From Candidatus Thorarchaeota archaeon (GTDB lineage: Archaea; Asgardarchaeota; Thorarchaeia; Thorarchaeales; Thorarchaeaceae), in the NCBI GenBank assembly GCA_021498125.1, contig JAIZWL010000005.1, forward strand, positions 1 through 64,000: a stretch of 64,000 nucleotides of DNA, in the 5' to 3' direction. The translations under genes and the position numbers were made by a program. Shown one piece after another: positions 15,682 to 28,909 of the stretch. The notes under the pieces are model-generated. The model did no database searches, had not been told where the DNA came from, and saw only the letters and a list, made by a program, of their open reading frames with translations. The first letter of the stretch is position 1. The number at the start of each line of letters is the position of its first letter.

Positions 15682-16539
15682 GTGTCGCGAGTCTTGGGAG
15701 AAGACGTTGAGAACTCGGAATCGAATTCAGAAGAGACCTCTGAAAACGAGGAAGAACACAATAAGATGTTTTTCATTTATGGCGTACACATCAATGATGT
15801 GAAGTCAGACATAAGAAAATTCGTACAGCCGGACGCCGAAGAAGAGGCAGAACTGTCGTCAGAACAGACCGGAAATATCTTATTGATCTCTGGTTTCTGG
15901 GGCGTTTTTATATTGTTTCTTTTTCTTGTTGGGGCCATGATTGTTGGAGTATTGCAGGGAAATGCTGGAGCGGACATGTTCATCGTCACATTGATAATTT
16001 CGGGCTTGTCGATCATTTTATTTCCGATACTCTGGTTGACTGTCACAATAGTATTTTCGATCTTTACAGTTGGTGCCTTTTTCAAGCGTCGTCATTTTAG
16101 TATAGTAATAGTCGACCGACGAAACGAAACCTTCGTGTCAAAATTACTGATGGCCGTCGTGATGCGCGGTGGTGTATTTAATGCAACCACCGATGATCCT
16201 GAATTTGACGATTGGGTGAGAGGCGCATTGAGGCTCTACTCACGAGTCGCCTATCTTCGTGTGACGGCTGTCATTTTGGCCGTTATCTGGGGAATACTCG
16301 AAATCGATCAACGATTTGATCTTCTTCATCTGGTCTATCAAGTCGATCTTTGGCCCTTTAGAATCATTATGCTGTTGCTATTTCTGCCATTGATTCTCTA
16401 TGGGGATCTCTTGGTATGGAAGATCAGGGGACATTATGCGGAAGGCGATCTGATCATCTATCGACTGAAAGCATCCAGTTCACGGTTTGACCCTGACGTG
16501 CCACTCTCGGACACGATGAGTGACTTCTCATTTGGTTAG
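15682..16539 (+). CDS. Tandem-paralog membrane protein, copy 1
   Basis: First of three neighbouring paralogs of a family I do not recognise. 285 residues from a GTG start. An acidic N-terminus is followed by a short conserved module (FIYGVHINDVKSDIRKFV), two membrane segments (about 72-95 and 105-133) and a basic FFKRRHFSIVIVDRR loop. A cytosolic stretch has RGGV and DPEFDDWV. Two more membrane segments follow, with LWPFRIIM, and a tail with HYAEGDLIIYRL. Both ends are predicted cytosolic. A hairpin terminator follows the gene. Confidence 0.7.
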   Translation: MSRVLGEDVENSESNSEETSENEEEHNKMFFIYGVHINDVKSDIRKFVQPDAEEEAELSSEQTGNILLISGFWGVFILFLFLVGAMIVGVLQGNAGADMFIVTLIISGLSIILFPILWLTVTIVFSIFTVGAFFKRRHFSIVIVDRRNETFVSKLLMAVVMRGGVFNATTDDPEFDDWVRGALRLYSRVAYLRVTAVILAVIWGILEIDQRFDLLHLVYQVDLWPFRIIMLLLFLPLILYGDLLVWKIRGHYAEGDLIIYRLKASSSRFDPDVPLSDTMSDFSFG

Positions 16540-16569
16540 AAGTACTGGCCGTTGTCGGTCCTCTTGATT

Positions 16570-16598
16570 GGTGGCAGAAGAAGATTCTGACTGCCACC
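16570..16598 (+). terminator. Hairpin with T-tract after copy 1
   Basis: GGTGGCAG pairs perfectly with CTGCCACC across 13 bases. Seven bases on is a run of six T's. This is an intrinsic-terminator-like structure that separates the first and second paralogs. Confidence 0.6.
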
Positions 16599-16754
16599 GC
16601 GTATTTTTTAATTCGCGCCTTTACTTTGACAGTAGTTTTTAATAAATAATTCATGCGACATGTATTTGCATGCTATGTTCTTCTAGTTCTAACTGAAAAG
16701 ACGCCACCATGTAATTGTTTTTTATCTCGGCAGAATGATTATATTGTGCATAGT

Positions 16755-17618
16755 TTGGTCAGGTTAGTAGAGGAGTGGAGACTGGTAACAGAAAATAGAG
16801 AACAACAAGATTTAGAAACCAAAGAATCCGGCGAGTCTGAAAACGTGATCTCTTTCGAGATTCTTGGTGTACCCTCATCAGCAGTACGAGATGACATTAA
16901 GAAATTTGCATCACCTATTGAGAACGAGGATGGATCTATGACTTCCGAGTCAGTAGGGGAGATCAATGTGACTTCGGGAATCATTACCATTTTGGCTGGA
17001 CTTGGTTCGGGACTTGGTGGAAGTGGAGAAGGTATCCTTCTCTTTCTTGTTATTTTATTTATAGTGATGAGCGTCTTTTCGATCGTCTGGGTTTTTGTGA
17101 TGATCGCCTTCTCAATTTTTACATTGGGCGGCTTTTTCAAGCGACGCCATATCACCGTTGTATCAATTAAAAAAAGAGATGATTCCTTTGTCTCTAAACT
17201 TGTTGTGGCTTCGGTTCTTCGAGGTGGGGTGTTATATGAAAATCTGGGCGATCCCGATTTCGATGACTGGCTCCAAAGAGCTCAGAAACTGTATCAAAAG
17301 ATGGTGCATATTCGTTGGGCTGGATTGCTTGCCGGAACGATCTGGGGCATTGTGGAGATTGCCTTTAAGGGGTATAACATTCTGCATCCTACATTTCACT
17401 ACGACCTCTGGCCTTTTAGGATTCTAATGGTCTCACTATTCCTCCCGATGATATTCTATAGCGCTTGGATCGAACTGAGACTCAGGCGTCACTATTCCGA
17501 GGGCGATCTGGTCGTTCATCGATTAATGGCCTCCGACCCCGTTTTCAATCCCGAACAGCCTCTTCCGGGTGCTGGTCCGTCAGGTCAATTGTCCGCAGAT
17601 GCTGACAAGCGACTTTAG
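16755..17618 (+). CDS. Tandem-paralog membrane protein, copy 2
   Basis: Second paralog, 287 residues if translation starts at the TTG at 16755, which matches the length of its neighbours. An ATG at 16653 is in frame but adds a Cys-rich, hydrophobic stretch missing from the other copies. The conserved elements are all present in order: FEILGVPSSAVRDDIKKF, two membrane segments around a Gly-rich turn, FFKRRHITVV, RGGVL, DPDFDDWL, FHYDLWPFRILM and HYSEGDLVVHRLMA. Each copy has its own hairpin terminator, so they may be expressed separately. Confidence 0.65.
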   Translation: MVRLVEEWRLVTENREQQDLETKESGESENVISFEILGVPSSAVRDDIKKFASPIENEDGSMTSESVGEINVTSGIITILAGLGSGLGGSGEGILLFLVILFIVMSVFSIVWVFVMIAFSIFTLGGFFKRRHITVVSIKKRDDSFVSKLVVASVLRGGVLYENLGDPDFDDWLQRAQKLYQKMVHIRWAGLLAGTIWGIVEIAFKGYNILHPTFHYDLWPFRILMVSLFLPMIFYSAWIELRLRRHYSEGDLVVHRLMASDPVFNPEQPLPGAGPSGQLSADADKRL

Positions 17619-17631
17619 GGATTGGACTCTG

Positions 17632-17663
17632 CGGTAGCAGTCATTTCAATGGCTGTTACCGCT
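17632..17663 (+). terminator. Hairpin with T-tract after copy 2
   Basis: GCGGTAGCAG pairs with CTGTTACCGC (one G-T wobble) across 12 bases, followed directly by TTTT. It sits 13 bases after the stop codon of copy 2. Confidence 0.6.
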
Positions 17664-17819
17664 TTTCGTCTGATTTAGTAGGGCCTGAAAAGATTAATGT
17701 GGACTCAGATATAACACACCATATCTGTGAGCCGTTGCCATCATTGGTTCTAGGAGAGACTGATGATCGCTTGATCGGTCGGCCCGTAGAATATCTCAAG
17801 CTTGGTTGGTGATTGTGGG

Positions 17820-18686
17820 ATGGAGAGTACGCCAGTGCATGAAGAACAATTTACGAAGATCTCTGGGACGACCTACCATTGGTACAATATCTTTGGGGTC
17901 TCAGGATCAACAGTTCGTGAAATGATCCACGAGTTTACAGGTGGGGAGCAGCATAAAAAATACATTTTAACACGCTGTTGTGGGAAGGTAAGGGCCGGAA
18001 CTGCACTTGGTCAAGAGTGTCTGGGAGCTGATTGTGGAACAGGCAGTGGCGGTGATTGTGGCGAGGGTCTGTGTTTTTGCCTGCTGTTGAGCATGCTCAT
18101 GATGGTCGTGGTCACCATTGTCTGGGTGGCCGTCATGGTCGTGTTCTCGTTCGTCACTGTTGGGGGATTTGTGAAGCGTCGATACAGGACTGCAATATTC
18201 CTCGAAAAGAAAAGCCATACATTTCTTGCAAAGATCTCATTGGCCGTTGCTCAGCTGGGTGGTGTTCTCGACTATCCAATTGGTGTACCCGACTATGATC
18301 ATTGGGTTTCAAGGACGGTGCGACTATTCAAGTATCTCAAATATATTCGTCAGCTAAGCCTTTTCTTGGGCACGGTCTGGGGTTTTAACGAAGTGTATTT
18401 CAAACTCAAGAACATCTTTGATCCAACTTTCCACTATAATCTCTGGCCCTTCAGATTTGCAATGGTGATCATCTTCATACCTCTCATCTTCAGTAGTCCT
18501 ATTCTAGAGATTAAGATTCGAGAGGCTATCGATATCGGTGAAGGTCTTATTCATGATGTTATTGCAATGCATCCCGAATACACACCGTCATCTATGGTAT
18601 CCATATCTCATTCCTATCGGAGCTACTCGATGAGTGATGAATCTGATTCCTATGATGTTGATAAGGAGTGGGATTTGTCGAATTAG
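17820..18686 (+). CDS. Tandem-paralog membrane protein, copy 3 (Cys-rich)
   Basis: Third paralog, 288 residues from the ATG at 17820. It keeps the family pattern: YNIFGVSGSTVREMIHEF, GGFVKRRYRTAIF, the GGVLDYP / DYDHWV region, FHYNLWPFRFAMV and a polar tail. It differs in the segment before the first membrane span (about residues 50-85), which has nine or so cysteines including CC, CxxxxC and CGxGLCFC groupings. That suggests a metal site or disulfides absent from the other two copies. Function unknown. Confidence 0.7.
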   Translation: MESTPVHEEQFTKISGTTYHWYNIFGVSGSTVREMIHEFTGGEQHKKYILTRCCGKVRAGTALGQECLGADCGTGSGGDCGEGLCFCLLLSMLMMVVVTIVWVAVMVVFSFVTVGGFVKRRYRTAIFLEKKSHTFLAKISLAVAQLGGVLDYPIGVPDYDHWVSRTVRLFKYLKYIRQLSLFLGTVWGFNEVYFKLKNIFDPTFHYNLWPFRFAMVIIFIPLIFSSPILEIKIREAIDIGEGLIHDVIAMHPEYTPSSMVSISHSYRSYSMSDESDSYDVDKEWDLSN

Positions 18687-18783: not shown

Positions 18784-20979
18784 ATGAGCGATCAGATTCC
18801 CAATATAGCGACCCAGTTGCTGTCCAGTGTCATTGGTGTACAGCCTCCCATCCCTGATGATCACGATATGCAGCTCGTGAGTATGGAGGCTGTGCGTATT
18901 GCAGCCTTAGAGTCCGCAGTGGCTCTCCGAATGAGAGATGCAATGCCAGCTCATCCCTCAGTATTCACACGACTCTCCCATCGTGCGGAGCTTGCTGGCC
19001 TTGACACGAAGACGGTTTGCTCCTTGACTGCTGAGATACTTCAACGAATCGACTTGGACAAGTCCGCTCATCAGATTGATCGATTGACTAATCGGAAATT
19101 CGCTGATCTCTTGGCCTCGTTACATTCTATAGGGTCTCATCTTCATCCCACACACGGTAAGCAATTAAAATCTCTGAGGCCTCAGGGTCTGTTCTATACT
19201 CCTTCTGAGGTGACGGATTTTATTGTTGATCTGGCCTTTGCTCCATTTTCGGCTGAACATTCATCCTCTCTCTTAGACGATGATCCTGATGCGATGGAAC
19301 AGATGCTCTCCCTATCAATCCTTGATCCAGCATGTGGTTCTGGTGGGTTCCTTGTGTCGGCGTATCTTCATCTTTTTGATCTTATCAGACGGGTTGAACC
19401 TCAGTCTGATGATTCCCTGTTGAGAGAGCGCATCCTACCGAATCTGTACGGTGTTGACGTTGATGCCGCAGCGCTTGAGGTTGCAAGGGTTTCCCTGCTC
19501 ACGATAGCTGGCCTCGATCCTGCAAAGGCCAAGTCTCTCAGACTGAACTTACGACAGGGTGATGCTCTGATCTCAAGATACGGATTGGCTGGGACCTCGG
19601 ACTATTCCCGATTGATTGAGGCGAGCGACAAATGGTTGCCCTTTGAGTGGCGCAGCGAATTTCCTGAGATCTTTCATAGGTCTCCAGAGGGCTTTGATAT
19701 TGTTGTTATGAATCCACCATACGAGCGACTGAAACCCAATTTCGCAGAGTTCCTGAGAGAGCGATTGGTTCAAGGAAGCCGCAAGATTCATACTGAAGAA
19801 TTCGCCCGGTATCGCGAGCAGCTCTCCCGACTCGTCACCTATTTTCGACGATGCTTTGACTATCATCTCACGAATCGTTATACCTTAGACACTCATAGAC
19901 TATTCATCGAGCGTGCACTCAATCTACTACGACCCGGTGGTCATCTTGCAGTCATTGTTCCCACGAGCATACTTGGAGACCTCTCTTCACAGCCCTTGCG
20001 TAGACACTTGCTGTACGATAACTTGCTTGTGGATGTCTTTGAGTTTCCCGAGACCGCTCGTGTCTTTCCGGGAGTGACCCAAGGTGTGACGATCTTTCTT
20101 GTGGAACGTGGTAACAGGACCGAGTACACACGCATCCGTGCTGGTCTTGATCGCTTGAAGACGGCTCTTACGGTCGAACCCTTGAGAGTGAGCATCACGG
20201 ATATCGAGCGGGTGATGGGGCAGTCGGTCAAGATTCCTCTTATCAGTCCACGCACTTGGAATGTGTTCGTTCAGATCCACCATCATCCACCACTCTCCGA
20301 ATACACGCAGATCCTCAATCTTAGAGGCGAGCTTGATATCACGATCGATCGGGAGTTCATCACGTCACACGATACTGGTGTCCCCCTCATCAGGGGGTCT
20401 CATATTGGTCGATTTAGATTAGGTAGGTCGAGCAAGAAGAGACGGGAGTACGTGCAGGTAGACGATTTTGCTTCATCACGTTCTTATTCCCGACGGATGT
20501 CACATATTCATCGCTATAGAATTGCAGGACAACAGATCTCAAACCGGGGTCAACGCTGGAGACTGAAGTTTGCTCTCATCGAGCCGGATCGTGTGTTGGC
20601 GAACTCATGTAATTATATTATTATTAGAAAAGATGATATGCGTTCATTACTCTATCTTCTTGGAGTGCTGAACTCCTCTCTTCTAAATCTGCGATTCAAG
20701 GTCGGAAGTACTAACAATCATGTGTCAAACCGGGAGATTAGCGAGCTTCCCCTAGTTAGCCCATTTGAGACCGATGGTGACACAGCTCAGGTGATCGACT
20801 CGATCGTAACAGTAGTCGAGCGTATCCTTAAGGCCGATGACAATCTTTCTCTCTCTGCTGAATTGGACGCGCTGGTCTTCAAGTTATATGGGGTGGCTTC
20901 CGGAGATGCAAAGAATGTCCTTCACGATCTCGGGGCTGGTCCTGATGAAGTGTCGCGTGTGACAGGTCTGTTATTGTAG
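18784..20979 (+). CDS. N6-adenine DNA methyltransferase, Eco57I/TaqI-like gamma class
   Basis: 731 residues, methylating adenine in DNA. Order is an N-terminal helical domain (1-130), FYTPSEV (about 137-143), SAM motif DPACGSGGFLV (about 181-191) and catalytic NPPY (about 310). A TaqI-type C-terminal target-recognition region follows, with the NHVSNREISELPLV specificity segment near residue 650. No PD-(D/E)XK or other nuclease motif is apparent in the N-terminal domain, so it is probably a methyltransferase only. It lies 82 bases before a cytosine-5 methyltransferase on the same strand, perhaps a two-strand modification pair for an asymmetric site. Confidence 0.85.
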   Translation: MSDQIPNIATQLLSSVIGVQPPIPDDHDMQLVSMEAVRIAALESAVALRMRDAMPAHPSVFTRLSHRAELAGLDTKTVCSLTAEILQRIDLDKSAHQIDRLTNRKFADLLASLHSIGSHLHPTHGKQLKSLRPQGLFYTPSEVTDFIVDLAFAPFSAEHSSSLLDDDPDAMEQMLSLSILDPACGSGGFLVSAYLHLFDLIRRVEPQSDDSLLRERILPNLYGVDVDAAALEVARVSLLTIAGLDPAKAKSLRLNLRQGDALISRYGLAGTSDYSRLIEASDKWLPFEWRSEFPEIFHRSPEGFDIVVMNPPYERLKPNFAEFLRERLVQGSRKIHTEEFARYREQLSRLVTYFRRCFDYHLTNRYTLDTHRLFIERALNLLRPGGHLAVIVPTSILGDLSSQPLRRHLLYDNLLVDVFEFPETARVFPGVTQGVTIFLVERGNRTEYTRIRAGLDRLKTALTVEPLRVSITDIERVMGQSVKIPLISPRTWNVFVQIHHHPPLSEYTQILNLRGELDITIDREFITSHDTGVPLIRGSHIGRFRLGRSSKKRREYVQVDDFASSRSYSRRMSHIHRYRIAGQQISNRGQRWRLKFALIEPDRVLANSCNYIIIRKDDMRSLLYLLGVLNSSLLNLRFKVGSTNNHVSNREISELPLVSPFETDGDTAQVIDSIVTVVERILKADDNLSLSAELDALVFKLYGVASGDAKNVLHDLGAGPDEVSRVTGLLL

Positions 20980-21061
20980 TGTCAATGCATCAGGGATAGC
21001 TATATTGCCCACGTGATGCAATGTCTCTTTAGTTGAAGTCTTTGTTGAAGACAAGTCGAGT

Positions 21062-22282
21062 GTGTCTGTGATGTTGGAGAGCCTTTCCGCTATGAAGAGC
21101 AGTGAGTCATTACTGTTCAATCACGTTTCTCCCTCTCTTAGTAGACTCGATCTTGAGATCATCCGTTCTATACCTCCCGGTGGCAACTGGCAGAACATCC
21201 CGCTTGAGACCGCAAAGAAGTCCTCCCGGATCATGCAAATTCGTGCGAGCGGCGGCCGTACAACATACTACGGACGACTCAGACCGGACATGCCCTCCTA
21301 CACGGTGAATACGTATTTTCATAGGCCCGGTAATGGCTCGTTCATCCACTACTCGCAGGATCGGATGATCTCTCTTCGTGAGGCAGCCCGTCTTCAATCG
21401 TTCCCTGACGCCTTTGTATTTCAGGGAAGTCTGTCTTCTATTTGCAAACAGATAGGGAATGCAGTCCCTCCCCTCCTTGCTCGTGCTGTGGGCCTGACCT
21501 TGAAGACGGGTCTGACCGTTGATCTCTTTGCTGGTTCTGGTGGCCTGTCACACGGTCTCAAGGATGCTGGCCATGACGTTATCGTGGCTGCGGAGATCAA
21601 TCCGGCAATGTGCGAGACCTATGCGCTCAACCATCCGACTACTCAGATACTTCAAGTAGACCTGTCAAATCACAAGGACTACTCGTTAATGGTCGAGACC
21701 GTTGAGAATACTCTCCATGGTCGTTCTCTCTCTCTTCTTGCGGGTGGCCCTCCGTGTCAGGGCTTTTCGACCGCTGGACATTGGAACCGCCTTGACTCGC
21801 GTAATGATCTCGTATCTGTGATGTTACAGGCTGTTGCTGATCTTCGTCCTGAGCAGGTCCTCATTGAGAATGTCTTGGGGATCAAGTGGATGGCCAAGGG
21901 AGTCTTTCTAAAACATATTCTTGCCACCTTGGCTAACCTTGGATATTCCACTCATTACTCGGTCCTACGAGCGGAACAGTTCGGAGTACCGCAACGCCGG
22001 CGTCGTGTTGTCATTATTGCAGATCGTGATGGGGACCTGAACGAGTTTCCCTCACCTCTCTTCCAAGCGGTCCCTAAAGGAATGAGGCGTCTTGAAACAC
22101 TGCCCGCTTCCGATCTTCCTCCACCCATCTCTGTTGAGGAAGCTATTGGCGATCTCCCTCCGGTAACTCCTGGAGGTGGAGAACATACTATCTCCTATAA
22201 TTCACTCTGGAGGGTAAGCAACTATCAGCAGTTGATGCGTGGCGAATTATCATTCGAAAAATTCTATGCCTCGAAAATCTAG
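21062..22282 (+). CDS. Circularly permuted DNA cytosine-5 methyltransferase
   Basis: 406 residues (GTG start; ATG at 21071 also possible). All core motifs of C5 enzymes are present but in rotated order. Motif IX comes first, with RLRPDMPSYTV (about 72-82) and ISLREAARLQSFPD (about 103-116). Motif X follows (QIGNAVPPLLA, about 130-140). Then come motif I DLFAGSGGL (about 154-162), motif IV GGPPCQGFS (about 229-237, catalytic Cys), ENV (about 269) and QRRRR (about 311-315). In normal enzymes IX and X are at the C-terminus. The sequence ends just after YQQLMRG, the piece that normally precedes the NH found here at residues 20-21. Confidence 0.9.
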   Translation: MSVMLESLSAMKSSESLLFNHVSPSLSRLDLEIIRSIPPGGNWQNIPLETAKKSSRIMQIRASGGRTTYYGRLRPDMPSYTVNTYFHRPGNGSFIHYSQDRMISLREAARLQSFPDAFVFQGSLSSICKQIGNAVPPLLARAVGLTLKTGLTVDLFAGSGGLSHGLKDAGHDVIVAAEINPAMCETYALNHPTTQILQVDLSNHKDYSLMVETVENTLHGRSLSLLAGGPPCQGFSTAGHWNRLDSRNDLVSVMLQAVADLRPEQVLIENVLGIKWMAKGVFLKHILATLANLGYSTHYSVLRAEQFGVPQRRRRVVIIADRDGDLNEFPSPLFQAVPKGMRRLETLPASDLPPPISVEEAIGDLPPVTPGGGEHTISYNSLWRVSNYQQLMRGELSFEKFYASKI

Positions 22283-22452: not shown

Positions 22453-24144
22453 ATGACTGGAGAGAATGACAATTTGATAGTATCCGCAGCGCTCATTGAC
22501 CTACATGGTCCAAAGATACTAGCTCAAGAGTCATTTTACCAGTCTGCCCCAAGTGTTGAATTGCATAATCGTGTCCTTGAACAGTTCTATGAACTTGCTG
22601 TTGCAGTGTCCATGGATGAAGTTCTCGAACTGAATGTTGCGGATCGTCATTGGCTCGTCACACGACTTGATGATGTCTCGGTCATTGTTGTTCAATGTCA
22701 TGACTCCACTCCCGACACTCAGGATATTACAGCTCTTCGTGCCCTCAAGAAGGCTTTCATGTGGAAGATGGGCGATGGATCAATTCGTGAATACAAGGCG
22801 GAGTTTGTCAAACTGGTCCGACGCCATCTTGTGCGCCCGGCCAAGTTTGTGATTATAACTTCAGCGCACATAGGTGTTGAAAATCATTCGGGGAAGGCCA
22901 CTCTTAGCATGGTTTCTGAACCGGGTGGCACTACTCGCGAACCAATTAGAGTTGGACCATATTTGGTCTCAGTGAAGCATTGTGATTTTGAGACCTTTCA
23001 ATGGACTGATGATTTTCTTGACGCGACCGGTTTTGGACTTGTGGTCTCTCCTGATGTTGATGAGGGCTTTTATCACAAGACGACCGAGACGATCCGTTCA
23101 CATCTCCCCTCTGCCCTTGTCTTGGTCATTCCCGGTTCTGACGATGAACTTGAATTTGCTCGGCAGATCGAGGATACTCTGGACGCACAACTCTGTGACT
23201 CGGTTTCTGAGGACTCGATCAATCTGCTTCTGACCCTGCTGGCCACTGCAATGCTGACCGATATGCATCCCGAGCTTGCCCGTAAGACATGGGCCATTGA
23301 GAAGATCAACTATGAATCACCGATCTCTGAGATCGAGCATCTGGGACATCAGGCGTTTATTGTCACAGAAAAGCAGACTGGCACTGCTGTCTTTACATAC
23401 TACTACGAGCCGAAGTCAAAGGTCATTGAGAGAGCCCCCAATTTAATCACTGCTATTTCCATGTTCAAATTGGACTATTCTGGATCGAATAAGACCTCGG
23501 TCTTCACGACTGGTACTTTGAATTTTATAATGATCGAACACGATGAGCTGGTCTTCACTCTGATCACAGGCAATCGTGATGATGTTGATGAGCTGAGGGA
23601 GAAGTTCTCATTTCTGCCGGATCTTTGGAAAGATGAGAATCCGGACGATCTGCAATGTGTTGAAGATGATCTGTACAAGTCCCCACCTTTTACGTTGAAA
23701 CTGTTAGCAACTCTCCCGCCAGAGTATCTGCTGCCTCGGATGGTCCCGTACCGGGTCAAGGAGATTGAATGGGATCGCTTCTCGTCCGAGATGGTGAAAG
23801 ATTTTCTTCAGGCCGTATGGAGCAGTCTAGATGGTCATATGGATCTAAAGCGGCTTGCGTATGGTGGTGGTCCTCAGATGACGTTGGGTGCAATACACCT
23901 ACTTCGCCGTCTTGGTGCCATTGACCTCAAAGTCGTCATTCGCCCCACTGATATTCTGGAGAAGGGACGGCCTCCAACATCTGAGGAGCGCTCGCTCTAT
24001 TCAAATCTAGACAAGCTACTTGGTGTGGTGGACGGGACACGAACACTCAGTGAGATCGCACAGCAGGCAGGGATAGACAATAATGTTCTTATTACAGTCT
24101 TCACTGAATTATACAAGCGTGGTATTATTCGGATTCGTAATTGA
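22453..24144 (+). CDS. Longin/roadblock-like protein with C-terminal winged helix
   Basis: 563 residues, soluble, no recognised enzyme motif. Residues 1-140 look like a longin or roadblock fold: strand, helix, then long helices, with LIVSAALIDLHGPKILAQES at the start, typical of a small GTPase-regulatory module. A second similar segment is around 285-400 (GHQAFIVTEKQTGTAVFTYY). The end (about 510-563: LDKLLGVVDGTRTLSEIAQQ, then VFTELYKRGIIRI) is a winged-helix-like tail. The same kind of tail ends the next gene, 90 bases downstream. I infer a regulator or partner of that GTPase; the domain calls are by eye. Confidence 0.5.
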   Translation: MTGENDNLIVSAALIDLHGPKILAQESFYQSAPSVELHNRVLEQFYELAVAVSMDEVLELNVADRHWLVTRLDDVSVIVVQCHDSTPDTQDITALRALKKAFMWKMGDGSIREYKAEFVKLVRRHLVRPAKFVIITSAHIGVENHSGKATLSMVSEPGGTTREPIRVGPYLVSVKHCDFETFQWTDDFLDATGFGLVVSPDVDEGFYHKTTETIRSHLPSALVLVIPGSDDELEFARQIEDTLDAQLCDSVSEDSINLLLTLLATAMLTDMHPELARKTWAIEKINYESPISEIEHLGHQAFIVTEKQTGTAVFTYYYEPKSKVIERAPNLITAISMFKLDYSGSNKTSVFTTGTLNFIMIEHDELVFTLITGNRDDVDELREKFSFLPDLWKDENPDDLQCVEDDLYKSPPFTLKLLATLPPEYLLPRMVPYRVKEIEWDRFSSEMVKDFLQAVWSSLDGHMDLKRLAYGGGPQMTLGAIHLLRRLGAIDLKVVIRPTDILEKGRPPTSEERSLYSNLDKLLGVVDGTRTLSEIAQQAGIDNNVLITVFTELYKRGIIRIRN

Positions 24145-24234: not shown

Positions 24235-26178
24235 ATGATTCACAATGTGATGCTCGTGCAGAAGAGTACAGGAGAAGTCCTTGCACGAGTTCGTTTCTGG
24301 AAGATCGAATTCACAGAACGACATGTCAAAGAATTTCTCATTGGCTACAATGATCTTCTCAATACTGAGGGTCTTGCAGAAGATACTCCCATTTACGTGG
24401 AGCAGCACAAAGTGTTCCATAGCCCTGTACGAGATGATATGCTTCTCATCTTTGCGACCGATGGGCGTGATGAGGATCGTACTATTCGATACAAGGTCCG
24501 TGAGAGCGCAGCACGTGTTGAGACCAGTCTTCGAGGAAATACCCTGAGTTACATCCGTGACAACCTTGATGACATACTTGGCGAGTTCGTCTTTACTCAT
24601 TTCAAGGTCTCATTTGTGGGTTCAGGTGGTGTCGGGAAAAGCACACTCCTTCGTCTTCTCTTTGGGAAGGAACCAGCCCCCGGTGGCTACGTTCCCACGA
24701 TCAATGTGGCCGTTGACTCTTCTGAGACCATCCAGTTCGGTACCTTCTTGGTGACGATCTGGGACTTTGCGGGACAGGCCGTGTTTCATGATCTCTGGGG
24801 ATTCTATTTCCAAGGTACAGATGTCATCTTTCTCGTCACAGATAGCAGTTTCCGAAATGTCATGCAGACCAAGTCTCTGCTGAGAAATATCAGAAAAGAG
24901 GCTCCGGCTGTTCCCTTATTCATCATTGCCAACAAGCAGGATCTCCCCGAGTCAATGCGCGCAGAGAAGATCCAACGATTGCTTGGTGCGCCCACATTCC
25001 CGATGGTCGCCACTGATAAGACCCGCAGAGAGGAATTCATCAGATTCATGTTGGAGGTGGCTGCAAAGACCGTAGGGGTCGAGCTTCCAAATAGGCCTCT
25101 GAGTGAGATGATCACTGTACGCCGCAGGACTGAGGAGGTCTTTCCGGATCAGTCTGCCTCTCCCACCCATGCCGAGACCGGCTATGAGACCGTACCCTAT
25201 GAGGAATCCGCTCCACACGATTCACAATCTGCCACTCAATCACAGGGCTCCGCAAGCACTTCAGGCTCGACCACGACACAGGCCACTGAGGCCATGGACG
25301 CTTCTGTTCCCGCAGCGGTTGTGAACGAACCGACCGAGGCGGAACTACTCCATCTAATGGTACTTGTTCATCATGAGGGACTCCCACGTATCGCATTTGA
25401 GTTCAAGTATACTGATGATGCGATCGAGGGACAATCCGTTGCGTCGCTCATTTCCGCTCTGGACTCGTTTAGTGGAATTGATGCCACTGCGGAACCCGGT
25501 GCCAAGACCGATGCTCTTGAGACCATCCAGCACGAAGGCAACCTGATCATGGTCGAGAAGTCTGCGAACTTTCTCATTGCGGTGACGGTGACAAATACCT
25601 CCCGCGAGACCGAGACCCGTCAGGCAATGTCCTCGATCCTAATGGACATGGAGTCTGAGCATGCTTCTGTCTGGGATAATTGGGAGGGCGATACAACTGT
25701 GTTTGAGACCTCGATCTTCAAGGTCCTCTCGCTCTTTCCCATCAAGGGAGTCGGTCTTGATTATCTTGTTCGTGCGAGAGAGGCTGGCAAACCTCTGCCC
25801 TTCAAGAACCGTGAGGTCGGAAAGGCCATTGTCGAGGTCCGATCCGCAGTTGATGGTAACACTACTGTTGGAGGCATTGTCAGAGAATTAGACATGCCAC
25901 GCGATGTCGTGTTCGGCTGTCTTCAGATACTGGCCAAATACGATTGGATCGACTTCCATGTCGATATCACTCCTCGAACAGTGCTTGTGAAGAAACGGGA
26001 TGTACCCGTGGACCTGCAAAAGATCTATGGGCCTCCAGTGGTCAAATTCGTAAATCTGTGCGATGGTACTACTGCTCTAGAAGATGTCGTTCGCAAGATT
26101 CCCGAGATCAGTCTTGCTCCAATGAAATTCGTCGCACCGAAGTTGGTGCTTCGTGGCGTCTTGGAAATCGTTGCTTGA
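24235..26178 (+). CDS. Longin - small GTPase - longin-like - winged-helix fusion
   Basis: 647 residues. Residues 1-115 form a longin/roadblock-like domain (MIHNVMLVQKSTGEVLARVR, then helices). Residues 122-285 are an Arf/Rab-type GTPase: G1 GSGGVGKST (about 129-137), switch threonine in PTINVAV (about 155), G3 WDFAGQ (about 176-181, catalytic Gln present), G4 NKQD (about 233-236). A Ser/Thr/Gln/Glu-rich linker (about 300-370) joins a second longin-like domain (about 375-500) and a winged-helix tail. No lipid anchor signal is seen. Asgard archaea are known for many such GTPases and longin/roadblock domains. This is likely a membrane-traffic-like or signalling switch acting with the previous gene. 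Confidence 0.8.
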   Translation: MIHNVMLVQKSTGEVLARVRFWKIEFTERHVKEFLIGYNDLLNTEGLAEDTPIYVEQHKVFHSPVRDDMLLIFATDGRDEDRTIRYKVRESAARVETSLRGNTLSYIRDNLDDILGEFVFTHFKVSFVGSGGVGKSTLLRLLFGKEPAPGGYVPTINVAVDSSETIQFGTFLVTIWDFAGQAVFHDLWGFYFQGTDVIFLVTDSSFRNVMQTKSLLRNIRKEAPAVPLFIIANKQDLPESMRAEKIQRLLGAPTFPMVATDKTRREEFIRFMLEVAAKTVGVELPNRPLSEMITVRRRTEEVFPDQSASPTHAETGYETVPYEESAPHDSQSATQSQGSASTSGSTTTQATEAMDASVPAAVVNEPTEAELLHLMVLVHHEGLPRIAFEFKYTDDAIEGQSVASLISALDSFSGIDATAEPGAKTDALETIQHEGNLIMVEKSANFLIAVTVTNTSRETETRQAMSSILMDMESEHASVWDNWEGDTTVFETSIFKVLSLFPIKGVGLDYLVRAREAGKPLPFKNREVGKAIVEVRSAVDGNTTVGGIVRELDMPRDVVFGCLQILAKYDWIDFHVDITPRTVLVKKRDVPVDLQKIYGPPVVKFVNLCDGTTALEDVVRKIPEISLAPMKFVAPKLVLRGVLEIVA

Positions 26179-26321: not shown

Positions 26322-28463
26322 CTAAGTCTTGATGATGATTCGTTCTGATGGTCTGGGGATCTTAATTCCACGAGGCTCTTGTTCTGTTGGAGTATGAACC
26401 ATTATCCTCTTCCCGGTGCATTCCTTGACATATGCTTGAAGCTGTGATGCTGACGAATGAGCGCTAAGGCGTGCATACTGAACTCGACATTGATGTTCCT
26501 CAAAGCCGTGAAGCAAGTTCCAACCCGGTGTGCGCGGTGCAAGGTATCCACAGAGAACGATCGCCGCTTTCGGATTGTCTCGCTGTTGTTCAAAGTGTTC
26601 TCTTGCAAGACCACCATTCATCATTCCTCCGCCGGCCACCAGAATGTCATCCTCATGGAGTTTTGTCTGTCCCGACTTTAAGGCATGCCAATGTCCTTCA
26701 TACCCGGAGATCTTTGTCACCTTCTCGGCCAGTCCTGCAACAATTACGTTCTTGGACTGTGTGGCACCAATCTGTTCGAGAAGTGTGAGCATCTCTTGAG
26801 ACCTTCCAACTGCAAACGACGGGATGACGATCGGCCCGTGGTTCTTGACGATCTCCTCCATCTGATGGATGACCTGAGTCCGGTTGAAATCTTCGCGCCC
26901 CCAATAGGTCCCATCAAAGATCACATAATCAGGATTAGTTGGTAACGAGGCGCCCGGTAAGATAAGCGACTGGTCGAGATTAAAGTCTCCAGTGTACAAG
27001 ATCTGGACTCCCTCGATGTCAAAGAGGTATGCTGCGCTTCCCGGGATATGTGAGGCCTCTAATGGTGTCACGACTATGCCGGGTGCGACTTCGCTGCTCT
27101 TCCCGATCTCGAGTTCAACATGATTCCTGATTGCCCGATCGATGTTGCGTCGATTGTATCGTGACACGAGATCCGTCTTGTCCCTCTTGCGAGGCGGAAG
27201 TGGCGTACCCACATTGAGCGCGTCCTCAAGAAGAAGTCGTGAGATCGCAGCGGTGAGTCCTGTTGAACACCACTTGCCCTCGAACTTGTCGTACAGGATC
27301 GGTAGTCCTCCAACATGGTCGAGATGCGCGTGGCTGATCAGAACTGTGTCGATCATCTCCAGCTCTGGCTCCCACCACGGAATCCGTTGATTCGCCACTG
27401 ACAGACCATAGTCCAGTAGCACGCCCCCAGTGTCCGTCTTGATCAGGATGCCACTGTGGCCGATACGCGGCCCGCCCAGAAAAATGATCTCAATCTGTTT
27501 TGTCTTGGTCGAGTATGCAACAGAAGACATGAGGCCAACACGAAGTTTCTGTGGTATCATCTCAAAGATGACCGGATCCATCGCCTCAATAGGCGGAGGC
27601 TCGGGGAGGTCTTGCAGCCGGACTGGCAGTATCGTCCCCTCATGTGACTTGAAACCGGTCTCGTCATAGACTTTCTGAACGGTATTGATCGCATCGGCCA
27701 CGGACATATCGTGAGTGATATGCTTCTGGGCCTCGGTGTTCACTTTTTTCTTGTAGATGCCGTGCAGCTTCTGGGAAATCCCATCTGGGAGCCACTCGCG
27801 TGTCAGTTTCCTCACGGTCTCGTAGGTCCGATCTCCAAGAGCCTCTTCCAAGTAGTTTGAGTACTTGCGAAGCGTGGCCACAAAACGGTAATCGTCTTCT
27901 TGAAGGATCTCCGTGATGTCCACACCGAACTCCTCGCATGGCTCCTTGAATTTTTCCGGTAGCCAGAGCGGGCTCCCAAGAAATTCGACCCACTCTCTGA
28001 ACTTGTCAAGTAGTGGTCGCCCCTCATACCCCTCAGCCAGCGAGATGATGACGATCGCCTTTCTCAGCCAGTCTTCGATCGTATGCCTCGAATAGCCCGA
28101 AGTGAGTGAGAGTCTGTAGACATGACGGAAGTCCTCTCTATTGTAGGCCCCAAGGATTACACCATAGACAAGCAAGATTGCCGCCTTTACAAATTCGTTC
28201 TCTGTGAGACCTTTTGTTGTTCCCCGTAGGACTCTCTCAAGGGCCACGTTCACAGCCCGCGCTTTTTCCAGACCCTCTACCTCTGCGCCCGAGGCCTTGA
28301 GGATCTGAAACGGCAAGAGTTCACGGCTCTCACCGAAACAGCCCTCCTCATCAGGTATGGCCCTTCCCGCCAGTGCTGATCGAGCATCCTTGATTCCTTG
28401 CTCAAGAATCTCTCTCAGAATCTTGTTCGATACCTTGGGAATAATCTTCTTGTCTATGTCCAT
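26322..28463 (-). CDS. Beta-CASP metallo-beta-lactamase nuclease with long N-terminal extension
   Basis: 713 residues from the ATG at 28463 (a TTG at 28475 is less likely). Residues from about 325 form a metallo-beta-lactamase/beta-CASP RNase: HAHLDHVGG, the motif-3 His in LEASHIPGSA, motif 4 TGDFN, motif A DGTYWG, the signature VIPSFAVGRSQE and the C-terminal His in IMVHTPTEQEP. These match archaeal RNA 3'-end-processing and exonuclease enzymes. The first 310 residues are mostly helical and do not look like the KH domains of aCPSF1. It converges on the GTPase gene across 143 AT-rich bases. Confidence 0.85.
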   Translation of the reverse strand: MDIDKKIIPKVSNKILREILEQGIKDARSALAGRAIPDEEGCFGESRELLPFQILKASGAEVEGLEKARAVNVALERVLRGTTKGLTENEFVKAAILLVYGVILGAYNREDFRHVYRLSLTSGYSRHTIEDWLRKAIVIISLAEGYEGRPLLDKFREWVEFLGSPLWLPEKFKEPCEEFGVDITEILQEDDYRFVATLRKYSNYLEEALGDRTYETVRKLTREWLPDGISQKLHGIYKKKVNTEAQKHITHDMSVADAINTVQKVYDETGFKSHEGTILPVRLQDLPEPPPIEAMDPVIFEMIPQKLRVGLMSSVAYSTKTKQIEIIFLGGPRIGHSGILIKTDTGGVLLDYGLSVANQRIPWWEPELEMIDTVLISHAHLDHVGGLPILYDKFEGKWCSTGLTAAISRLLLEDALNVGTPLPPRKRDKTDLVSRYNRRNIDRAIRNHVELEIGKSSEVAPGIVVTPLEASHIPGSAAYLFDIEGVQILYTGDFNLDQSLILPGASLPTNPDYVIFDGTYWGREDFNRTQVIHQMEEIVKNHGPIVIPSFAVGRSQEMLTLLEQIGATQSKNVIVAGLAEKVTKISGYEGHWHALKSGQTKLHEDDILVAGGGMMNGGLAREHFEQQRDNPKAAIVLCGYLAPRTPGWNLLHGFEEHQCRVQYARLSAHSSASQLQAYVKECTGKRIMVHTPTEQEPRGIKIPRPSERIIIKT

Positions 28464-28909
28464 AACTCTCACCAAGTCCCTGGCGGTTCGTGGCGTGTGC
28501 CTGATGATGCGTTCTGCCTCTTAAATCAAAGGGTCTCAAATGCCCTAACTGGTGATCATGCTATCTTGCGGATCTAATTTCTTATTACTTAATAATCTCA
28601 ATTGTGGTCGATCCACACGATTTGAGATCTTCTTGACCGCCTTCGACTCATTGGATGATTGGTATATACGTATCGTACATTATCTTATAAAGCAAAAATG
28701 GAGAGATTAGTATTGCAGTTCGTCGTCGGATTCTTCCATCAAAGGACGTAAGGATTTGATCCTTTGATGAACCAAGACACGCCAAGTCTAATGTATTCAC
28801 ACTTTCACCACACGGATTTCACGAAGCAGATCGTCGTTGTGGTACAAGTATCATTGAGATATCTGTCACGTGAGAAGATACATTCATACTTGGATGGAGG
28901 TTCAGTATT
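28464..28909 (+). promoter_or_regulatory. 446-base leader region of the surface-protein gene
   Basis: No gene is seen. A good archaeal TATA element (CTTATAAAG, 28684-28692) implies a start near 28715 and a leader of about 195 bases. The leader contains a perfect 10-bp stem, CATCAAAGGA with TCCTTTGATG, at 28737-28746 and 28760-28769 around 13 bases. Long structured leaders are often found for abundant surface proteins, where they can affect message stability. That role is inference here. Confidence 0.5.

Follow-up and report, generated by a model that had tools for sequence, protein, structure and literature searches.

Within the window, the 64,000-nucleotide stretch of thorarchaeal DNA analysed here, two adjacent genes, P0001 and P0002, appear to encode the two halves of one regulatory complex, a heterodimer of an active GTPase and a pseudo-GTPase. 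For this pair, our computations establish the domain composition, intact motifs, paralogy along the full length, P-loop loss, conserved adjacency and purifying selection. The dimer, its nucleotide cycle and its output are what we infer, a reading that we place just on the probable side of even; the heterodimer is proposed on indirect grounds, namely the paralogy, the strict adjacency, the fact that P0002 lost its motifs while under selection, and the precedent of the Rag GTPases. The coordinates of the genes, their domains and their neighbours are listed in Table 1.

Table 1. Positions of P0001, P0002, their domains and the flanking genes in the window.
Feature	Coordinates	Strand	Remarks
P0001, longin-GTPase-longin-wHTH-wHTH, 647 aa	24235..26178	+	ATG start
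P0001 N-terminal longin, residues 1-118	24235..24588	+	AF2 topology bbabbbaa, pLDDT about 85; profile matches AP sigma and VAMP7 longins
P0001 Arf/Rag-like GTPase domain, residues 122-283	24598..25083	+	G motifs all intact; catalytic Gln Q181
P0001 acidic low-complexity linker, residues 291-366	25105..25332	+	pI 4.2; disordered in AF2 model
P0001 second longin, residues 371-500	25345..25734	+	AF2 topology bbabbbaa; profile alignment
P0001 first winged helix, residues 526-586	25810..25992	+	AF2 secondary structure; P0002 winged-helix region homologous (E 2.4e-14)
P0001 second winged helix, residues 592-646	26008..26172	+	AF2 secondary structure; weak best PDB match, NPRL2 wHTH (E 0.27)
P0002 pseudo-GTPase paralogue, 564 aa	22450..24144	+	directly upstream of P0001; AF2 pLDDT 83
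P0002 N-terminal longin, residues 10-127	22477..22830	+	hhalign to P0001 longin E 7.3e-6
P0002 degenerate GTPase domain, residues 129-280	22834..23289	+	no P-loop; no recognisable DxxGQ or NKxD
P0002 second longin, residues 300-396	23347..23637	+	AF2 model
P0002 two winged helices, residues 413-505 and 511-562	23686..24135	+	AF2 model; hhalign
tandem genes for N6-adenine (Eco57I/Alw26I-like) and C5-cytosine DNA methyltransferases	18784-22282		one PADLOC type II methyltransferase model spans both
beta-CASP metallo-beta-lactamase protein	26322-28475	opposite	immediately downstream of P0001 and P0002; aCPSF1 and type VII Cas14 models match in part

Residues 121-252 of P0001, whose MIHN start is kept among orthologues, matched Arf/Ras-type GTPases in Pfam (Arf 4.9e-18, Roc 1.5e-16, Ras 2.5e-13); Gtr1_RagA gave 3.1e-5, an equivocal match of 24 bits (cut-off 22) beside the 65.7 bits of Arf. 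The motifs G129-S136 (GSGGVGKS), T155, D177-Q181 (DFAGQ), N233-D236 (NKQD) and T260/K262 (ATDK) were located, and the G1-G5 set, comprising the P-loop, the switch Thr, DFAGQ, NKQD and ATDK, is invariant or near-invariant among 22 orthologues. By these motifs, P0001 is a Ras-superfamily small GTPase, Arf/Rag-like, for which GTP binding and hydrolysis are predicted; the source genome holds 28 Ras-family matches. The initial annotation, which had described a complete Arf/Rab-type GTPase with a catalytic Gln followed by a low-complexity linker, is borne out on both points. The full chain is 59-76% identical across the Thorarchaeota family, and the median dN/dS of the G domain is about 0.016; this conservation places the architecture far beyond chance.

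Both domains that flank the GTPase display the longin fold, in P0001 as well as in P0002, according to the AF2 models. In P0001, residues 1-118 follow the order beta-beta-alpha-beta-beta-beta-alpha-alpha, and a profile of this domain built from 20 Asgard longin-GTPases retrieved AP-4 sigma (5.8e-4), AP-2 sigma and the VAMP7 longin as its top PDB matches, so that the assignment does not depend on the model alone; Pfam Fuz_longin_1 scored 1.4e-6 in a relative. The second longin has the same topology, and its profile aligned with that of the N-terminal longin with an hhalign E of 3e-6. The initial annotation had left the N-terminus as longin- or roadblock-like and had called the second domain longin-like. 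Structure prediction supports a longin on both sides of the GTPase, and the roadblock alternative falls away for the flanking domains because their topology lacks the leading helix; likewise, the third domain of both proteins has longin topology rather than that of the C-terminal roadblock of Rag/Gtr proteins. The second longin belongs to a domain class that is very abundant in Asgard genomes, in many cases on chains without a GTPase motif. A C-terminal longin of this class was also observed in proteins of approximately 720-760 aa with several likely N-terminal membrane helices, from several Asgard families (L195 387-2612, L196, L197, L199 and L201).

The tail of P0001, previously described as one winged helix, consists of two. 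The winged-helix regions have a near-neutral to acidic pI on average (6.8 and 5.8), which argues mildly for protein contacts over DNA contacts. The P0001 model has a mean pLDDT of 69 and a low pTM, its G domain being poorly modelled with low pLDDT from a shallow alignment, and the pTM of both models is low (0.51 and 0.43), which makes relative domain positions unreliable.

P0002 may start at the TTG at position 22474, judging by its orthologues. In the AF2 model (pLDDT 83), the strands and helices of its middle domain still follow one another as in Ras, and this domain matched the G-domain profile of Asgard longin-GTPases with an E of 1.2e-6, as compared with 0.01 for Ras-type, 0.005 for reversed and 0.036 or worse for unrelated-family controls. 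A P-loop, found in 22 of 22 P0001 orthologues, is present in none of the 25 P0002 orthologues, and no DxxGQ or NKxD could be recognised at the aligned positions of the P0002 G domain. Loose motif patterns yielded five G3-like matches and one G4-like match in these 25 sequences, which, judged by eye, we take as chance. The median dN/dS of this G domain is 0.071, a value that denotes purifying selection; on this ground, P0002 is best described as a maintained pseudo-GTPase and not as a decaying gene.

The P0001 and P0002 families are paralogous along their whole length (hhalign E 9.5e-17 over 550 columns). When compared domain by domain, corresponding domains gave the best match for three of the four (longin 7.3e-6, G domain 3e-5, winged helices 2.4e-14), and off-diagonal pairs remained at noise. 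Orthologues of P0001 occur in 39 of 47 genomes of its Thorarchaeota family, some cut by contig ends. In the 36 genomes that contain both genes, the two are adjacent and on the same strand in 33, with an intergenic gap of 92-190 bases, and the remaining three lie at contig ends. Given the colinear domain order of the two proteins, a whole-gene duplication would be the simplest reading, not a proven one. Some results speak against the pair model: between the second longins of P0001 and P0002 the match is no better than noise (E 0.023), and the tree of C-terminal modules groups those of P0001 with two stand-alone Thorarchaeota modules (98/96), the branch of P0002 being long. A clade uniting P0001 and P0002 in that tree was not rejected (AU p 0.09). 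In the source genome itself, two tandem stand-alone longin-wHTH-wHTH genes, kin of the P0001 C-terminal module and conserved in Thorarchaeota, are located at L091 3140-4957.

According to the mechanism we propose, each chain would contribute a longin, a G domain, a longin and two winged helices, and P0001 and P0002 would most likely pair through their matching longin domains, by analogy with the roadblock-mediated pairing of Rag/Gtr GTPases. P0001 would bind and hydrolyse GTP, and P0002, devoid of the usual nucleotide binding, would act as a regulator or as a scaffold that does not switch. Depending on the nucleotide bound to P0001, its switch regions would contact the longin platform differently and would thereby uncover or mask surfaces for partners; among these surfaces are the winged helices, for which we expect binding to proteins and not to DNA. 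If the pair works in this manner, Asgard archaea own a two-subunit longin-based GTPase:pseudo-GTPase switch, and a simple test system would be available for longin control of GTPases before the Rag, GATOR1, TRAPP and tri-longin GEF complexes. The case is a concrete one: the genes are neighbours, they are conserved across a whole archaeal family, and they come with a clear prediction on binding and nucleotide affinity.

The strongest competing explanation holds that P0001 is a self-contained switch, whose N-terminal longin acts in cis on its GTPase as an autoinhibitor or as a GAP/GEF-like platform, and that P0002 works apart. The longin lies only a few residues from the G domain, and the longin-GTPase half (residues 1-300) is found across much of the Asgard phylum, mostly as stand-alone proteins of approximately 300 aa, which must function without the partner in those lineages. 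However, P0002 stands beside P0001 in every genome whose contig permits the test and is under purifying selection, and dimerisation in trans is just as conceivable for the longin of such a longin-GTPase. We consider the self-contained switch rather unlikely; the initial annotation had proposed a single fused switch with its own putative regulator, which is possible, but had not noted the adjacent P0002, which shifts the likely mechanism from a self-contained to a two-subunit switch.

In the sample of genomes whose matches were inspected, the five-domain architecture of P0001 was not found outside its Thorarchaeota family. In G051, a genome from a different family, three genes that follow one another on the same strand (L184 1447-3771) encode separately a longin-GTPase, a coiled-coil ORF and a longin-wHTH-wHTH protein; both halves of P0001 thus occur together unfused, a hint that they may belong together. 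In several Asgard genomes, the longin-GTPase genes adjoin a family of 330-440 aa proteins (L089 2289-3488, L090 5049-6188, L098 951-1934 and L101 1679-2755). A by-eye impression that these neighbours are NPRL2-like was discarded, as their profile revealed no longin and no clear PDB match.

Fold searches place both proteins among known GTPase and longin systems. With Foldseek against the PDB, the P0002 model matched RagA, RagC, Gtr1 and Gtr2 first (E 4e-7 and up), followed by Mon1/Ccz1, NPRL2/3, AP sigma and AAGAB, and the P0001 model matched chains of GATOR1/SEA first, with Rags and single GTPases lower; these top chains are of NPRL2/NPRL3 type as assigned by length and entry, since the result table gives the complex and not the subunit. 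Since the placement of the domains relative to one another is unreliable, TM-scores were low and the rmsd large for all these matches, which indicate a fold and not kinship. NPRL2 and NPRL3 share with P0001 a longin followed by winged helices, but contain no GTPase. The sole hint at the sequence level is the weak match of the last wHTH of P0001 to NPRL2 (E 0.17-0.29), and the NPR2 family (PF06218) had no match anywhere in the source genome; membership of P0001 in NPRL2/NPRL3 was therefore rejected, the likeness being one of fold only. The notion that a Rag-like GTPase is fused here to an NPRL2/NPRL3-like longin-winged-helix module and accompanied by a pseudo-GTPase twin, such that a single molecule still unites, or has come to reunite, a Rag switch and its GATOR1-type GAP platform, seems to us decidedly speculative and unlikely. 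If it were true, a source of this kind could be common to the Rag and GATOR1 modules of eukaryotes.

In the Rag/Gtr GTPases of eukaryotes, a roadblock domain is fused to the GTPase and mediates pairing. As in P0001/P0002, the heterodimers RagA-RagC and Gtr1-Gtr2 consist of two paralogous chains in which a longin/roadblock-class domain follows the G domain. The thorarchaeal pair differs by its added N-terminal longin and C-terminal winged helices, by longin instead of roadblock topology, and by its partner: nucleotide binding is retained in RagC and Gtr2, while the motifs are missing from P0002. AAGAB with the AP sigma longin, among the fold matches of both proteins, likewise joins a pseudo-GTPase and a longin partner, but AAGAB is an assembly chaperone, the chains are separate and winged helices are absent. 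Tri-longin RabGEFs (Mon1-Ccz1, Fuzzy-Inturned and BLOC-3) are paralogous multi-longin heterodimers, linked to our proteins by fold matches and weak Fuz_longin_1 matches; unlike P0001, they have no GTPase domain of their own and target a separate Rab. Among archaea, longin domains fused to Arf-like GTPases have been described in Lokiarchaeum (PMC4917890), and strain MK-D1 encodes longin-GTPase, GTPase-roadblock and longin-GTPase-roadblock chains, as well as two Rag-like GTPases from one operon for which a roadblock-mediated dimer has been predicted (PMC10933270). These proteins resemble P0001 in having an Arf/Rag-like G domain between a longin and a longin/roadblock-class domain, and the MK-D1 pair shares the operon arrangement; in P0001, however, the third domain is a longin, the chain continues into two winged helices, and the GTPase motifs have been lost from the operon partner. 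The fused switch is consequently less unusual than first proposed, given the Rag/Gtr roadblock fusions and the Lokiarchaea chains. The longin-GTPase fusion itself has precedent; for the pseudo-GTPase partner or the double winged-helix tail, no description was found in the open-access literature searched, subscription papers and preprints lying outside this scope.

Across 18 Thorarchaeota loci, N6-adenine and C5-cytosine methyltransferase genes usually lie upstream on the same strand as the pair, and a beta-CASP nuclease gene lies downstream on the other strand. Further upstream in the window, three consecutive plus-strand ORFs (285, 321 and 294 aa; 15682-18686) had no Pfam match. Winged helices are often DNA-binding, and the block of N6-adenine methyltransferase, C5 methyltransferase, P0002 and P0001 recurs on one strand in most of the Thorarchaeota loci compared, which would fit a DNA-linked regulator in an epigenetic or defence operon. 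Such a reading is very unlikely in our view, as the synteny is real yet separable: the N6 methyltransferase was not found in the near-complete genomes G013 and G023, both with the P0001/P0002 pair, and is located away from the pair in G024, and the C5 methyltransferase is missing beside the pair at L127. Moreover, the winged helices carry no DNA-binding signature in their pI, and neither protein matched a PADLOC defence model better than noise. A methylation role is possible for the pair; it is not favoured, because the N6 methyltransferase is separable from it.

The structurally close Rag GTPases and NPRL2/3 serve nutrient signalling and not vesicle formation, and a role as an Arf/Rab-type GTPase defining a membrane, compatible with Arf as the best Pfam match and with a longin fold common to AP sigma and VAMP7, is highly improbable for a protein in which a 118-residue longin takes the place of the amphipathic, lipid-modified Arf N-terminal helix, neither a transmembrane segment nor a site for lipid modification was noticed, and coat and SNARE genes are absent nearby. 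The relevance to the origin of vesicle-traffic machinery suggested by the initial annotation finds no support in these data: a membrane anchor and a coat or SNARE context were looked for and not found, and the conserved neighbours are DNA methyltransferases and a beta-CASP nuclease.

A further combination of such domains was observed in a 628 aa chain (L202 1370-3253), in which a Gtr1/RagA-like G domain is joined to a longin and to a second, Ras-like G domain.
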